NCBI GenBank assembly: GCA_030684815.1
Contig: JAUXXQ010000115.1
Span: forward strand, 1-64,000
Direction: 5' to 3'
Source of the DNA: Methylobacter sp.
Lineage (GTDB): Bacteria; Pseudomonadota; Gammaproteobacteria; Methylococcales; Methylomonadaceae
DNA length: 64,000 nucleotides
The notes below the pieces were generated by a model. That model was not told the DNA's origin. It was given only the letters and a program-made list of their open reading frames with translations, and did no database searches. Shown here piece after piece: positions 25,150 through 31,776 of this stretch. Position numbers and translations under genes: made by a program. Positions within the stretch are counted from its first letter, which is position 1; every line of letters starts with the position of its first letter.

Positions 25150-26229
25150 TCATGCTGTTTTTTCAACCAGCCGCACCCGCTGGGTAACACCGCATACCAA
25201 AGTATAGGGAATAGTATCGGCGCATAAGGCAATTTCTTCAACCGGTAAGTCATCGCCCCACAAGGTCACCGGATCGCCGGGTTTGGCCTCGGTATCGAGA
25301 CCTAAATCAACCGTCATCATGTCCATCGACACCCTGCCGATCAGTGGCACACGTTGCCCATTAATTAATACCGGGGTGCCGATTTTGGCATAACGCGGAT
25401 AACCGTCACCATAGCCTATCGCCACCACACCGAGCATTGTAGACTTTTTGCATGTCCAACTGCCGCCGTAACCCACAGTATCACCCGCTTCGATGGGCTT
25501 GACCGCAATCAGGCGGGAATGTAGGGACATCACCGGTTTTAGCCCCAGTTGCTGGCCTGTTGCATCGGGGAACGGCGAGATGCCGTACAGCATGATGCCG
25601 GGACGCACCCAATCGCTTAGCGAGCTCTCCCACGCCAAAATGGCCGCCGAATTCGCCAGACTGCGCTCACCGGGCAATCCGGCAACGGTCTGCTGGAACA
25701 GGCTGATCTGTTTTAGCGTCTTATCGTCGCTAATGTCATCGGCATTGGCAAAATGCGTCATCAGGTTGATTGGCTGTTTAATAACAGCGCATTGGCTTAA
25801 GCGCTGATAAACCGCGTTGAACGCTTCCGCCTTAAAACCCAGGCGGTTCATGCCGGTGTCGAGTTTTAGCCAAGCTGCAATAGGTTGTCCCGCTATAGCG
25901 TCGAATATGTCCAACTGGCTTAAACAATGCACCACTGCATCTAATTGGTAATACTGCAATTTCTCCAATTCCTCGGCACAGGTAAAGCCTTCTAAAACGG
26001 CAATCCTGTGACCCAATCCGGCATTACGCAAGCGAATACCTTCGTCAACCCGGGCGACCGCAAAGGCATCGGCTTGTTTTAACGCTTCGGCCATGCGTAT
26101 CAAGCCATGCCCGTAACCGTTCGCCTTAATAACCGCCATGACTTTGGCATCCGGCGCACAGCCACGCACTTTATCCAAATTATGTTGGAGCGCGCCCAGA
26201 TTGAGTTCCGCATAAGCCGCCGGGGTCAT
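25150..26229 (-). CDS. alr: Alanine racemase
   Basis: VMAVIKANGYGHG PLP motif; family-typical throughout. Confidence 0.96.
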   Translation of the reverse strand: MTPAAYAELNLGALQHNLDKVRGCAPDAKVMAVIKANGYGHGLIRMAEALKQADAFAVARVDEGIRLRNAGLGHRIAVLEGFTCAEELEKLQYYQLDAVVHCLSQLDIFDAIAGQPIAAWLKLDTGMNRLGFKAEAFNAVYQRLSQCAVIKQPINLMTHFANADDISDDKTLKQISLFQQTVAGLPGERSLANSAAILAWESSLSDWVRPGIMLYGISPFPDATGQQLGLKPVMSLHSRLIAVKPIEAGDTVGYGGSWTCKKSTMLGVVAIGYGDGYPRYAKIGTPVLINGQRVPLIGRVSMDMMTVDLGLDTEAKPGDPVTLWGDDLPVEEIALCADTIPYTLVCGVTQRVRLVEKTA

Positions 26230-28661
26230 TCATCGTCCCCGCTGCCGTAATAAGTTCCGGCGAAATTTTCAAAACGGGTATATTGCCCCAAAAAGGTCAG
26301 CCTGACCGTGCCCAACGGGCCGTTCCGCTGTTTGCCGATAATGATTTCGGCAATGCCTTTATCTGGACTGTCTTCGTTATACACTTCGTCGCGATAAACG
26401 AACACGATCAAATCGGCGTCCTGCTCAATCGCGCCGGATTCGCGCAAATCCGACATCATTGGACGTTTATTGGGGCGCTGTTCGAGATTACGGTTAAGCT
26501 GGGACAAAGCCACCACCGGCACATTCAATTCTTTTGCCAGTGCTTTCAAGCCACGGGAAATATCGGAAATCTGCTGCACCCGGTTGTCACCGCTGGACGG
26601 CGATTGCATCAGCTGCAAATAATCCAGCACAATCAAGCCCAGCTGGCCGTGTTCACGCGCCAAACGTCGCGCCCTTGAGCGCACTTCGGTCGGCGTCAGC
26701 GCCGGCGTGTCGTCGATAAACAACTTGGTTTCCGCCAATATATTAATGGCCGAGGTCAGGCGTGGCCATTCATCATCTTCCAGCTTGCCAGTCCTAATCC
26801 GGTGCTGATCGATACGACCCAATGACGACATCATCCGCATCGCCAGCGAATCGCCGGGCATTTCCATACTGAATACTGCAACCGGCTTATCGCCTTTGAT
26901 CGCGACATTTTCCGCCATGTTCATGGCTATCGTCGTATTATGCACAACCGTCATGTCTTCCAATAAAAACAATCGATTACCATCACAAACAAAGCCATAG
27001 TAATCATCTTCCCGGTCATATTCGATACGGATTCCTGTTTGCTGCCACGTCCTGTTGCATGTCCAGGCCGCCGCTTTTTTCCGCGCAACTCTGACCGGAA
27101 TCGCATTGATGTCGCCTGAAAAGCGCAGGCGATAAACCGTGCATTGATAGCCTGTTGTTTTAATGCTGGCCTGTTTTGCAATGAGTGACGTTCTAAAGCC
27201 TAAGCTATCGCATAAAAACTTAATTTGCGCCGCCAACGCAGCGTTTTTCTGTGTTATTTCGTACACCTTGTATTTATGCGCGTAATGGCCATCACTATCG
27301 ATCAAACCTGCCAGCAGCTTCAACCGGTTAGCGCGGGAATTTGCTAAAAACAACGGGGGAATGTGCTTGTTGTTTAGCAGGTTCAGCTCCCTTAATATTT
27401 TCTGTAAGGAAAAGTTATTCTGATGATTACCCCTTAACTGGGAGCTGATACTGTACAGCGGGCATTTGTCATTACCCAGATTATCCTTGGCCAATTTCTC
27501 GGTTAAATGCAAATCCAATTCCGCTGCATACGCCCTCAGATAATCAATCACTTCCGTATCGGTCGTTGCAATATCGACGGCGGCGCTAACCCCATCGCCC
27601 AACCACAGCCCTAAAAAATAAGGGCACACCGGAAGCGGCTGTTCGGCAAACTCAACAGCCACCTTATAACCTTTGTAATTGGACTGGAACTTGGTGCTAG
27701 CCTTGAGATAATCGGTTAAAAGAATATTGAGGACATCACCGTTACTATGTCGGCCTTCGTTGCGGCTACGTTTTAACGACAAAATGTGTGCTTCATTCAC
27801 GCGATAATCCAGCGCCTTATTTTGCCGTACCCAATACATAGCCTCCCGTCCGCGCGCCAAAGACAACACCTGCCTCGGCGTAGAATCGTCGCCCATCAGC
27901 CTATCGCCAACCTGAATATCTTCTACCGCCTTTGTTTCGCCCGAATACATCAAAATACGCGTGCCTTTGCCAAAGCATTTACCCATTGACGGCCGTCCGG
28001 CAACAATAATTAAATCAGCCGGTTGCAGGCCGGAGGTCAGTTCGTCAAAATCGGTAAAGCCGGTCGCCGCGCCGGTGATATTGCCTTCTTGTTCAAACAG
28101 CGTTTCAATCTTATCGACGGCGCGCGCCAGCAATGATTTAATCGTGGAAAAACCGCCCTGCCCGCGTTGGCGCTGTTCGGCGATTTTAAACACTTCGCGC
28201 TCGGCATTTTCTAGCAAATCTGCGGTTTCGCGGCCTTCGGTATTGAATGCGGAATCGGAAATCTCGGTGCCGACATGGATCAACTGGCGCAATACCGAGC
28301 GGTCTCTAACGATATTGGCATAAGTGACGATATTGGCGGCGCTGGGCGTGTCTTTGGCCAACATGCCCAAATAAGACAGGCCGCCGGAATTTTCCAGTTC
28401 GCCAATGGCTTCCAGTGCTTCCGAGATGGTAATGACATCAAAAGGAATCTGCTTTTCGGCGAGTTGTTCAATGGTCTTAAAAATCAGCCGGTGGTCGCGG
28501 CGGTAAAAATCGCTTTCCACCACCTTGTCCGACACCGAATCCCAGGTTTGGTTGTCCAGCATTAATCCGCCCAAAACCGATTGCTCGGCCTGAATGGAAT
28601 TAGGCGGCACTTTTAGAGAATCCAGCGAATAATCATGGTCGAACGAATAATTTTCAGACAT
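26226..28661 (-). CDS. dnaB: Replicative DNA helicase DnaB containing an intein
   Basis: N-domain and RecA-like domain (VLDYLQLMQ...LSQLNRNLEQRPNKRPMMSDLRESGAIEQDAD) split in the P-loop. Confidence 0.97.
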   Translation of the reverse strand: MSENYSFDHDYSLDSLKVPPNSIQAEQSVLGGLMLDNQTWDSVSDKVVESDFYRRDHRLIFKTIEQLAEKQIPFDVITISEALEAIGELENSGGLSYLGMLAKDTPSAANIVTYANIVRDRSVLRQLIHVGTEISDSAFNTEGRETADLLENAEREVFKIAEQRQRGQGGFSTIKSLLARAVDKIETLFEQEGNITGAATGFTDFDELTSGLQPADLIIVAGRPSMGKCFGKGTRILMYSGETKAVEDIQVGDRLMGDDSTPRQVLSLARGREAMYWVRQNKALDYRVNEAHILSLKRSRNEGRHSNGDVLNILLTDYLKASTKFQSNYKGYKVAVEFAEQPLPVCPYFLGLWLGDGVSAAVDIATTDTEVIDYLRAYAAELDLHLTEKLAKDNLGNDKCPLYSISSQLRGNHQNNFSLQKILRELNLLNNKHIPPLFLANSRANRLKLLAGLIDSDGHYAHKYKVYEITQKNAALAAQIKFLCDSLGFRTSLIAKQASIKTTGYQCTVYRLRFSGDINAIPVRVARKKAAAWTCNRTWQQTGIRIEYDREDDYYGFVCDGNRLFLLEDMTVVHNTTIAMNMAENVAIKGDKPVAVFSMEMPGDSLAMRMMSSLGRIDQHRIRTGKLEDDEWPRLTSAINILAETKLFIDDTPALTPTEVRSRARRLAREHGQLGLIVLDYLQLMQSPSSGDNRVQQISDISRGLKALAKELNVPVVALSQLNRNLEQRPNKRPMMSDLRESGAIEQDADLIVFVYRDEVYNEDSPDKGIAEIIIGKQRNGPLGTVRLTFLGQYTRFENFAGTYYGSGDDE
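26937..27977 (-). mobile_element. Intein with LAGLIDADG (DOD) homing endonuclease, 347 aa, in the DnaB Walker A motif
   Basis: Extein GRPSMGK|CFGKGTRILMYSG...VVHN|TTIAMN; C1, terminal HN, DOD blocks LGLWLGDG and LLAGLIDSDG; in frame. Confidence 0.93.
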
Positions 28662-29805: not shown

Positions 29806-30536
29806 TTCAGCGCAATGATGGAGGCGAAATTGAAGTATTGGAACCAAACTTCGGCACTGCTAAAACCGGCCTGGCGCAAGCGGCTTTGATGTTGGCTAAA
29901 GGTTTCCGGGATCAACACGTTTTCCAATGCGCTGCGCTTCTGGCTGATTTCCAAACCACTGTAACCTTGCGCGGCTTTAAACGCATGGTGCATTTGCGTC
30001 TGCAAGTCCTGCTGCCGGTCATCATCGAATTTGAGTTTTTCCGACAGGATTAAAATGCCGCCGGGCAACAGCCCCTGATAAATTTTTTGTAACAGCTGGC
30101 GGCGGTCTTCCAGCGGGATAAACTGCAAGGTGAAGTTTAAGACCACCACCGAGGCATTTTCAATGGCGACATCGCGGATGTCGGCGCACAACACATCGAC
30201 AGCCACCGCAGCCTGGTCTTGCTGCAACACCTCCTGAAAGCGCGCCAGCATTGCCTCGGAATTATCCACGGCAATGATGCGGCAGTGTTCAGCGGTAATC
30301 TGATGGCGCATTGATAAAGTTGCCGCACCTAATGAGCAGCCCAGATCATAACAAACGCTACGGTCACGGGCAAAGCGGCTCGCCAACAGACCTATCGCCG
30401 AAATAATGGCGCTGTAACCGGGCACCGAGCGCCGGATCATGTCGGGAAAAACACGGACGACGCTATCGTCGAATTTAAACGCACCGACGTCGCCAACAGG
30501 GCTGGCATACAGGGAATCTTTGGAAGAATTCATCAA
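29802..30536 (-). CDS. cmoA: Carboxy-S-adenosyl-L-methionine synthase CmoA
   Basis: DSLYASPVGDVGAFKFDDSVVRVFPDMIRRSVPGY. Confidence 0.96.
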   Translation of the reverse strand: MMNSSKDSLYASPVGDVGAFKFDDSVVRVFPDMIRRSVPGYSAIISAIGLLASRFARDRSVCYDLGCSLGAATLSMRHQITAEHCRIIAVDNSEAMLARFQEVLQQDQAAVAVDVLCADIRDVAIENASVVVLNFTLQFIPLEDRRQLLQKIYQGLLPGGILILSEKLKFDDDRQQDLQTQMHHAFKAAQGYSGLEISQKRSALENVLIPETFSQHQSRLRQAGFSSAEVWFQYFNFASIIALK

Positions 30537-30540
30537 ATTT

Positions 30541-30721
30541 TCTTGTTGGTTTGAGACCTCTCCCTTCAGGGAGATTTGTTAAACGTTGACAGCGATGCTT
30601 TAGCATCGTTATCGTTCGGTAACCTCGTCGTTTACGGCGAGGCAATCCACCGGCCTCCAGCTGTCGATGGATTGTCGTAAGACAAGTCATTTGGCAGATG
30701 AGGTCGAATGTGGATTGAAAC
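30541..30721. repeat. Multi-hairpin element, copy E1, ending GAGGTCGAATGTGGATTGAAAC
   Basis: Alignable end to end with 31513-31681. Confidence 0.8.
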
Positions 30722-30813
30722 ATCAATTAGAAAAATAGCACAGGTAGGGGGGATATTGTCCGCGAAAGATGGGAAGCTACAAAAAAACATGACGTTTTTT
30801 CCGCTGCTGCAAA

Positions 30814-30842
30814 CAAAAAAGGGCGGCCGGCAGCCGCCCTTT
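30814..30842 (-). terminator. Rho-independent terminator of mlaC
   Basis: Minus strand AAAGGGCGGCTGCCGGCCGCCCTTTTTTG. Confidence 0.88.
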
Positions 30843-30862
30843 CGCAAAATCAGTTTTGCAGG

Positions 30863-31507
30863 TTAAGAGCGTGCAGCGGTTTTTGCCGCCAAGGCTTCGG
30901 CATTGCGCTTAACCAGCCCTTCAATCACTGCGCTCAATGAGCCTTTGCTTTGCACTTCATTGGCAAAGGTGGTGCGGTAGTTGGTCACCAAGCTGACGCC
31001 TTCAATCATAATATCGTAGGCTTTCCATTCGCCTTTGCTCAGCAACATCCGGTAATTAACAGCAATGGGCTGTATGCCGGGTTGCAATACTTCGGTTCGG
31101 ACCACGACCTTAGTAGCGCCCGGCTCCATTTCCAACGGTAAAAAGCGCACCGACCAGTCCTTGAATTCGACAAAGGCACGGGAATAAGTCCTGACTAACA
31201 ACGTTTGGAATTCGTTTTTAAAACGCTCGCGTTCATCGTTAGTCGCCGTTTTCCAAAGCGTACCCAAAACTAAGGCCGAAATACGGTCGAAATCGGTATG
31301 CGGATAAATGACTTCATTTACAAACTTGGCAATCTTGGCAAAATCCTGGGTAAACGTTTTGTCTTGCAGCCTTTCCTGTAATGTCACCGAAGCCGCGTGT
31401 ATCGGCTGCTGCGGTGGCAATAAGTCGGCCGCAATAACCCGGGTAACCGACATTAAACCGAGTAATACAACCCATAAACCCAATAGGGCGACTTGTTTAG
31501 CTTTCAT
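30863..31507 (-). CDS. mlaC: MlaC/Ttg2D-type phospholipid-binding ABC transporter protein
   Basis: Signal peptide then EVIYPHTDFDRISALVLGTLWKTATNDERERFKNEFQTLLVRTYSRAF. Confidence 0.9.
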   Translation of the reverse strand: MKAKQVALLGLWVVLLGLMSVTRVIAADLLPPQQPIHAASVTLQERLQDKTFTQDFAKIAKFVNEVIYPHTDFDRISALVLGTLWKTATNDERERFKNEFQTLLVRTYSRAFVEFKDWSVRFLPLEMEPGATKVVVRTEVLQPGIQPIAVNYRMLLSKGEWKAYDIMIEGVSLVTNYRTTFANEVQSKGSLSAVIEGLVKRNAEALAAKTAARS

Positions 31508-31512
31508 CGTAT

Positions 31513-31681
31513 TTCCTTGTTGCTTAGAAACCTCCCCTTTAGGGGAAATCGTTAAATTTGACAACGATGTATCCGCATCGTTATCCTCGGGTAACCTCCT
31601 CGTTCACGGGGAGGCCATCCACCGACCTCATCTGTCGATGGCTTTGTCATTCGACAGATGAGGTCGAATGTGGATTGAAAC
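31513..31681. repeat. Multi-hairpin element, copy E2, ending GAGGTCGAATGTGGATTGAAAC
   Basis: Perfect stem GACCTCATCTGTCG/CGACAGATGAGGTC plus ATCCAC/GTGGAT; homologous to E1. Confidence 0.8.
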
Positions 31682-31776
31682 TAAAATTGAACCGGTTCAT
31701 GCTTTTTATCCGTGCATATCAGGGCTGGTTAGCTTCCCTGATACAATGTTTTTTGTACTCAGACCCCCATACTTAA

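Follow-up and report, generated by a model that had tools for sequence, protein, structure and literature searches.

The window analyzed here, a stretch of 64 kb taken as a whole, contains two homologous multi-hairpin units, E1 and E2, which have the same orientation, align end to end and are the only two copies of their kind in the window (Table 1). The initial annotation had aligned 30541-30721 with 31513-31681 along the whole length in the same orientation, and this alignment is confirmed; the four hairpins that it described are all present, and the terminal stem of E2 is indeed perfect. The homology thus stands but the size assigned to the units does not, given that the conserved part starts earlier, at TTCAT (TTCATCAAATTT at 30529 in E1 and TTCATCGTATTT at 31503 in E2), and has GTGGATTGAAAC as its right end, usually followed by AT (GAAAC(AT)). 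The placement of both copies directly 5' of the minus-strand genes cmoA and mlaC was correct and, if anything, understated: both start codons form the edge of an element. The reported absence of cas, tnpB and iscB genes nearby fits the genes seen around the copies, as a statement about that neighborhood only. Elsewhere in the window, the gene for the DnaB replicative helicase (26226-28661, minus strand, 811 aa) contains an apparent intein at the P-loop, with the junctions (slashes) SMGK/CFGKGTRI... to ...VVHN/TTIAMN.

Table 1. Features of E1, E2 and the genes that they adjoin
Feature	Coordinates	Strand	Remarks
Family ends: TTCATCAAATTTCCTTG / GTGGATTGAAACAT (right end)			
cmoA-like methyltransferase, 243 aa	29802..30533	-	start codon rebuilt by E1; name from the initial annotation and sequence resemblance
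E1 target TTCAT (ATGAA on minus strand)	30529..30533	+	cmoA start codon inside (CAT, 30531-30533); empty cmoA starts in relatives
E1 body, left end CAAATTTTC to right end GTGGATTGAAAC	30534..30721	+	
E1 weakened Shine-Dalgarno-like AAGAA for cmoA	30540..30544	-	family consensus AAGGA
E1 left near-terminal palindrome CTCTCCCTTCAGGGAGA	30558..30574	+	
E1 promoter-like TTGACA-18-TATCGT	30586..30615	+	overlaps second hairpin; consensus match only
E1 third hairpin CCTCGTCG-TTTA-CGGCGAGG	30623..30642	+	
E1 terminal long stem and GTGGATTGAAACAT (right end)	30643..30723	+	model R1, 79.1 bits, E 3.4e-21
mlaC-like gene, 214 aa	30863..31507	-	start codon rebuilt by E2; native Shine-Dalgarno (GAGG) lost
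E2 target TTCAT	31503..31507	+	mlaC start codon (CAT, 31505-31507); empty site in G005 and others
E2 body	31508..31681	+	
E2 Shine-Dalgarno-like AAGGA for mlaC	31514..31518	-	
E2 left near-terminal palindrome CCCCTTTAGGGG	31534..31545	+	
E2 promoter-like TTGACA-18-TATCCT	31558..31587	+	consensus match only
E2 second hairpin AACGATG-TATCCG-CATCGTT	31563..31582	+	
E2 third hairpin CCTCCTCG-TTCA-CGGGGAGG	31595..31614	+	
E2 terminal long stem and right end	31615..31683	+	model R1, 87.8 bits, E 7.4e-24

A multicopy, transposase-free element family

E1 and E2 are copies of a mobile DNA element of ~175-195 bp that lacks a transposase of its own; shorter, terminal-only forms of the family span ~50-80 bp. 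The genome-wide search for further copies yielded 41 BLAST matches in the source genome (best 2.7e-75), which amounts to ~40 copies, and the 19-nt end occurs there 32 times exactly or nearly so (at most two mismatches) versus zero occurrences of the reversed control, far more than chance would give. Among 61 relatives searched with BLAST, 11 genomes match, all from the same genus, with at least 13 scored matches each in G000, G002, G008, G016 and G022; four sister genomes carry tens of copies. A covariance model of the terminal stem (R1) extends this range to 37 genomes out of 251 from the order. Five or more additional genera within the taxonomic family yield strong matches (13 of them in G249), and the matches in another family are weak. 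Plasmid and phage collections contained no match to the element, Rfam produced sub-threshold matches and no family above the gathering score, and no earlier description of the family was found in open-access text, which is weak evidence given that limit.

The subfamily of E1 is young and homogeneous, E1 itself being 96% identical to the family query, and that of E2 is older and lacks an 11-nt extension of the inner loop. Several sites are common to sister species, with element copies that are 89-97% identical, and the cmoA copies in G000 and in G008/G016 belong to different subfamilies; thus, vertical inheritance and repeated insertion (or copy replacement) both occurred. The fabD copies in G000 and G016 (L027, L082) are 99% identical, compared with only 81% for MlaC between these genomes, a mismatch that hints at recombination or mixed contigs.

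The terminal-only units correspond to the last hairpin, and several of them (L344, L347, L356) are bounded exactly by TTCAT/CCACC...GTGGATTGAAACAT; the form found in G249 (L361) is also shorter and lacks the first two hairpins. Two 307-bp copies in G016 carry a foreign unit within the left palindrome and occupy separate TTCAT sites, which shows that mobility requires no more than the ends. The inserted unit (L219, G016:C50:18900-22900) has 15-bp inverted repeats, AAAGCTATCTACACA, and resembles the SMR elements that attack PATEs (palindrome-associated transposable elements, transposase-free relatives of IS200/IS605). Right-end-only and left-end-only matches were examined for an autonomous copy, and no long copy with both ends was found among them: several are full-length diverged copies and the rest are terminal-only or truncated. 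A candidate 2.4-kb element in G008 (C99) was rejected as two separate copies.

The family is real and is closest to PATEs. In Haloquadratum walsbyi, PATEs commonly occur as core-deleted, terminal-only forms and their palindromes are often hit by small mobile repeats (PMC3119063). The present elements likewise have no terminal inverted repeats but palindromes near the termini, are too short to encode a transposase, have a 4-5-base target at the 5' end, include terminal-only forms and suffer insertion of small inverted-repeat elements into their palindromes. Unlike PATEs, they are bacterial, share their ends with no IS605-type transposon found here, have a target, TTCAT, that coincides with start codons, carry a reversed Shine-Dalgarno sequence at the left end, and have AT at both junctions, which is compatible with a 2-bp duplication. 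The notable traits of the family are the insertion into start codons and the reversed translation-start site that it carries.

Target sites and the folding strand

Insertion occurs inside ATGAA (TTCAT on the folded strand), often within the start codon of a gene. Sequence logos built from 71 and 123 copies show ATGAA as fixed on one side and only a preference for AT on the other; TTCAT/ATGAA is kept in nearly all of the 123 copies, with nothing else conserved on the target side. The target is therefore the plus-strand TTCAT, with no further constraint. In 73 of 87 copies, each of the two junctions shows AT, which represents either the last two bases of the element or a 2-bp target duplication.

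Clean empty orthologous sites exist in the close relative G005 (MlaC 94% identical), at feoB, fabD, hypD, oligopeptidase A, a RIO kinase gene and others. At feoB, the empty site CTCTG^ATGAAAACTG of G005 corresponds to the filled CTCTGAT-element-ATGAAAACTG in the source genome; the empty sites of fabD (ACTGAC-ATGAATAACC) and of the RIO kinase gene (GGCGGCC-ATGAAAACTCC) agree, all three filled sites consisting of the same left flank, AT, the element and ATGAA. At mlaC, where many relatives have an element-free site (TTCAATTTTA-GAGGTTTTT-ATGAAAGC in G005), the filled site (31682-31690) lacks both the native GAGG and AT, and a second loss of native sequence of this kind is seen in the comparison of L026 with L159.

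These are the two compared sites with a clear native Shine-Dalgarno sequence, which was lost together with the element-adjacent AT; at sites devoid of such a sequence, the flank is kept in most cases. Insertion also creates an ATG at the far junction (ATGTTTC), and loss of the native Shine-Dalgarno sequence may keep a stray ORF from arising upstream. Different subfamilies have reused the start codons of cmoA, oligopeptidase A, a response regulator gene and mobA, which by a rough estimate is not clearly above chance.

The fold is strand-specific. Folded individually, 72 of 88 copies reach greater stability as the plus strand; for E1 the values are -81.8 kcal/mol for the plus strand versus -57.8 kcal/mol for the minus (coding) strand. 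RNAalifold applied to all 88 copies returned almost no structure, probably owing to alignment noise, and a hand-set stem was used instead. Across 40 diverse copies, 94.6% of the cells of the 24-pair terminal stem are paired compared with at most 46% for slid versions; one pair alternates between U-A and C-G (20/17), and double changes affect three pairs only, so that classical covariation is limited. More telling is the wobble bias: G-T on the plus strand accounts for 73 cells and A-C (G-T on the minus strand) for 22, with no such strand bias in the pairs of the third hairpin. The suggestion of the initial annotation that wobble pairing reflects selection on structure is thereby confirmed for the plus strand. 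Given this bias, the structure belongs to the plus strand, as single-stranded DNA or RNA, rather than to the downstream mRNA.

Rebuilt translation starts

On the minus strand, almost all copies terminate in the Shine-Dalgarno-like AAGGAAATTTG and then ATGAA. Because the left end in reverse carries a Shine-Dalgarno sequence, a spacer and ATG, cmoA (E1) and mlaC (E2) are predicted to start from sequence supplied by the element. The count of start codons covered 123 distinct copies from 11 genomes, all of which retain the left end intact: 79 begin an ORF of 60 codons or more and 44 open no long frame; in the source genome, the former class comprises 28 of 35 copies. Most of the element-borne ATGs in that genome open unrelated genes, judged by sequence resemblance to be cmoA, mlaC, fabD, feoB, hypD, oligopeptidase A, a RIO-type kinase gene, cytochrome genes and others.

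How far this exceeds expectation depends on the baseline. Between 142 and 144 of the 174 ATGAA sites in the window lie within genes, from which it follows that gene interiors are strongly avoided by the element; of the remaining sites, 33% or 53% are starts, depending on the start-calling method. Compared with 33%, the excess in 79 of 123 copies looks strong, whereas compared with 53% it shrinks to a weak effect across all genomes (Fisher p = 0.31) and a borderline one in the source genome (p = 0.04). Any excess over other non-coding ATGAA sites is thus modest on the more generous baseline, and the start-codon position results mainly from the target combined with the elimination of insertions that do damage. 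The presence of an intact AAGG does not significantly increase the share of copies located at start codons (p = 0.2).

It is conceivable, albeit doubtful, that the element is adapted to start codons, with a left end maintained as a functional reversed ribosome-binding site, such that housekeeping genes can be occupied at little cost; it would then act as a mobile translation-initiation region, having captured dozens of unrelated gene starts, and may couple their expression. If the rebuilt starts work, this would be a selfish element that limits harm by mending what it broke, and the translation start of many core genes would have been replaced at once. The family also offers a simple test case for the question of whether target choice (TTCAT, i.e., ATGAA) and element sequence co-evolved.

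Mode of movement and alternative readings

We consider it probable that this transposase-free family moves as single-stranded DNA by means of an IS200/IS605-type (Y1 HUH) transposase acting in trans, a mode with which the strand-biased wobble is consistent. The folding strand is the one with TTCAT at the left end, and insertion at TTCAT leaves AT at both junctions. As TTCAT reads ATGAA on the other strand, insertion often occurs in a start codon, where the reversed left end CAACAAGGAAATTTG, placed beside ATGAA, rebuilds the Shine-Dalgarno sequence, spacer and start codon at the sequence level, such that the interrupted gene would remain translatable. With IS200/IS605 the family has in common asymmetric ends, subterminal hairpins on one strand, a fixed short left target and an unconstrained right flank; it differs in that the element encodes neither tnpA nor tnpB and the genomes searched yielded no autonomous copy. 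The element works like a PATE, and its membership in IS200/IS605 is putative. The non-autonomous, IS200/IS605-derived palindromic element initially proposed as one of two hypotheses is, accordingly, largely right with respect to the multiple copies, empty sites, one-sided TTCAT target, palindromes and terminal-only forms, but none of the transposase loci examined has ends of this kind.

The genus is rich in Y1 transposases, and TnpB matches are present in five carriers and in G005. None of the Y1/TnpB loci examined in nine genomes had the ends of the element, and a scan of the Y1 loci for these ends and for the stem model detected no adjoining element; in G016, a TnpB gene has one element at a distance of ~1 kb. 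In a comparison from which some Y1 fragments were missing, none of the Y1 subfamilies tracked element abundance, as none was restricted to the element-rich genomes or present in all of them. The tnpB or iscB gene with matching ends envisaged in the initial annotation was not found at the loci examined: IscB is present only as fragments, and the TnpB right ends, considered as a source of the element, were rejected because they terminate in GATGTCAA, TAATTCAC or GTAGTCAA, unlike the element. Many copies have the tetranucleotide TGAA ahead of the left palindrome, and it also forms part of ATTGAAAC; this tetranucleotide is the complement of TTCA within the target. Such pairing is known from target recognition by IS608 and would suit a recognition of that type, although four bases are weak evidence; the young subfamily in G000 has TGAG, not TGAA, on the left.

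REP/BIME sequences with RAYT (TnpA_REP) are similar in being short hairpin repeats that might be mobilized in trans by a domestic Y1 enzyme. In contrast to these, no element was found beside the scanned Y1 loci, the structure is long and composite, and the target is TTCAT; the GTAG-type tetranucleotide characteristic of REP/BIME is absent.

Movement by a non-Y1 enzyme that targets ATGAA, for instance a DDE transposase that duplicates AT (2 bp) or some unknown enzyme, appears unlikely. It would account for AT at both junctions in most copies, given that IS200/IS605 makes no target duplication, and for the lack of a detected Y1 partner with matching ends, but it sits poorly with the absence of terminal inverted repeats, the conservation of the target on one side only, the strand-specific folding and the PATE-like terminal-only forms.

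The orphan guide scaffold related to omegaRNA, the other of the two initial hypotheses, is improbable and found no nuclease partner. Here, the internal TTGACA-18-TATCNT would drive a plus-strand RNA of ~100 nt ending in host flank, which would guide a TnpB/IscB-like nuclease in trans with TTCAT as the adjacent motif. The conserved plus-strand stem, the promoter-like pair, which is kept in most full copies, and the position of TTCAT, which in the empty site adjoins the 5' side of the flank just as a TnpB target motif does, are all consistent with this reading. HEARO prefers ATGA, and the hairpin-rich units of HEARO/IscB and of TnpB omegaRNAs similarly lie beside host flank and a motif that resembles ATGA or TTCAT. 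However, G002 has a single TnpB fragment yet more than 10 copies, G012 and G020 have a copy and no TnpB, the TnpB right ends in the genus differ, IscB is represented only by two short RRXRR fragments, and no Rfam family reached the gathering score. Unlike omegaRNAs, the element has no IscB or TnpB partner with matching ends, and its folded strand and promoter pattern need no RNA function. The conserved promoter-like pair, as a sequence match, still leaves some probability to a role as RNA, but the short forms, including that of G249 and the terminal-only units, lack it.

A cis-acting 5' leader or riboswitch that spread with genes and acts in the minus-strand mRNA is very improbable and largely refuted: the copies do lie directly upstream of many start codons with a Shine-Dalgarno sequence at the end, but the coding strand folds worse in E1 and in most copies, the wobble changes favor the opposite strand, and the genes are unrelated, with over a third of the 123 copies opening no long frame.

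An orphan type I-C CRISPR repeat or crRNA-like unit can be practically dismissed because, although the terminal 12-mer, GTGGATTGAAAC, is identical to the end of an I-C type repeat of the same genus (G008:C95) and Cas5d-like proteins are encoded in the source genome, the copies are single with unrelated flanks and form no repeat-spacer arrays, GTGGATTG is one side of the terminal stem and pairs with CAATCCAC, so that part of the shared 3' 12-mer is stem, and both G008 and G012 carry the element and have no Cas5d match. The equation of the terminal sequence with the 3' end of I-C repeats holds for the match to GTGGATTGAAAC, but the ATTGAAAC end belongs to no array. Hairpin units ending in ATTGAAAC may thus mimic CRISPR or guide RNA while being neither. 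In G008, a genome without a Cas5d match, the I-C-like repeat of contig C95, GTCGCGCCCCGCGTGGGCGCGTGGATTGAAAC, lies just downstream of a TnpB gene (L319).
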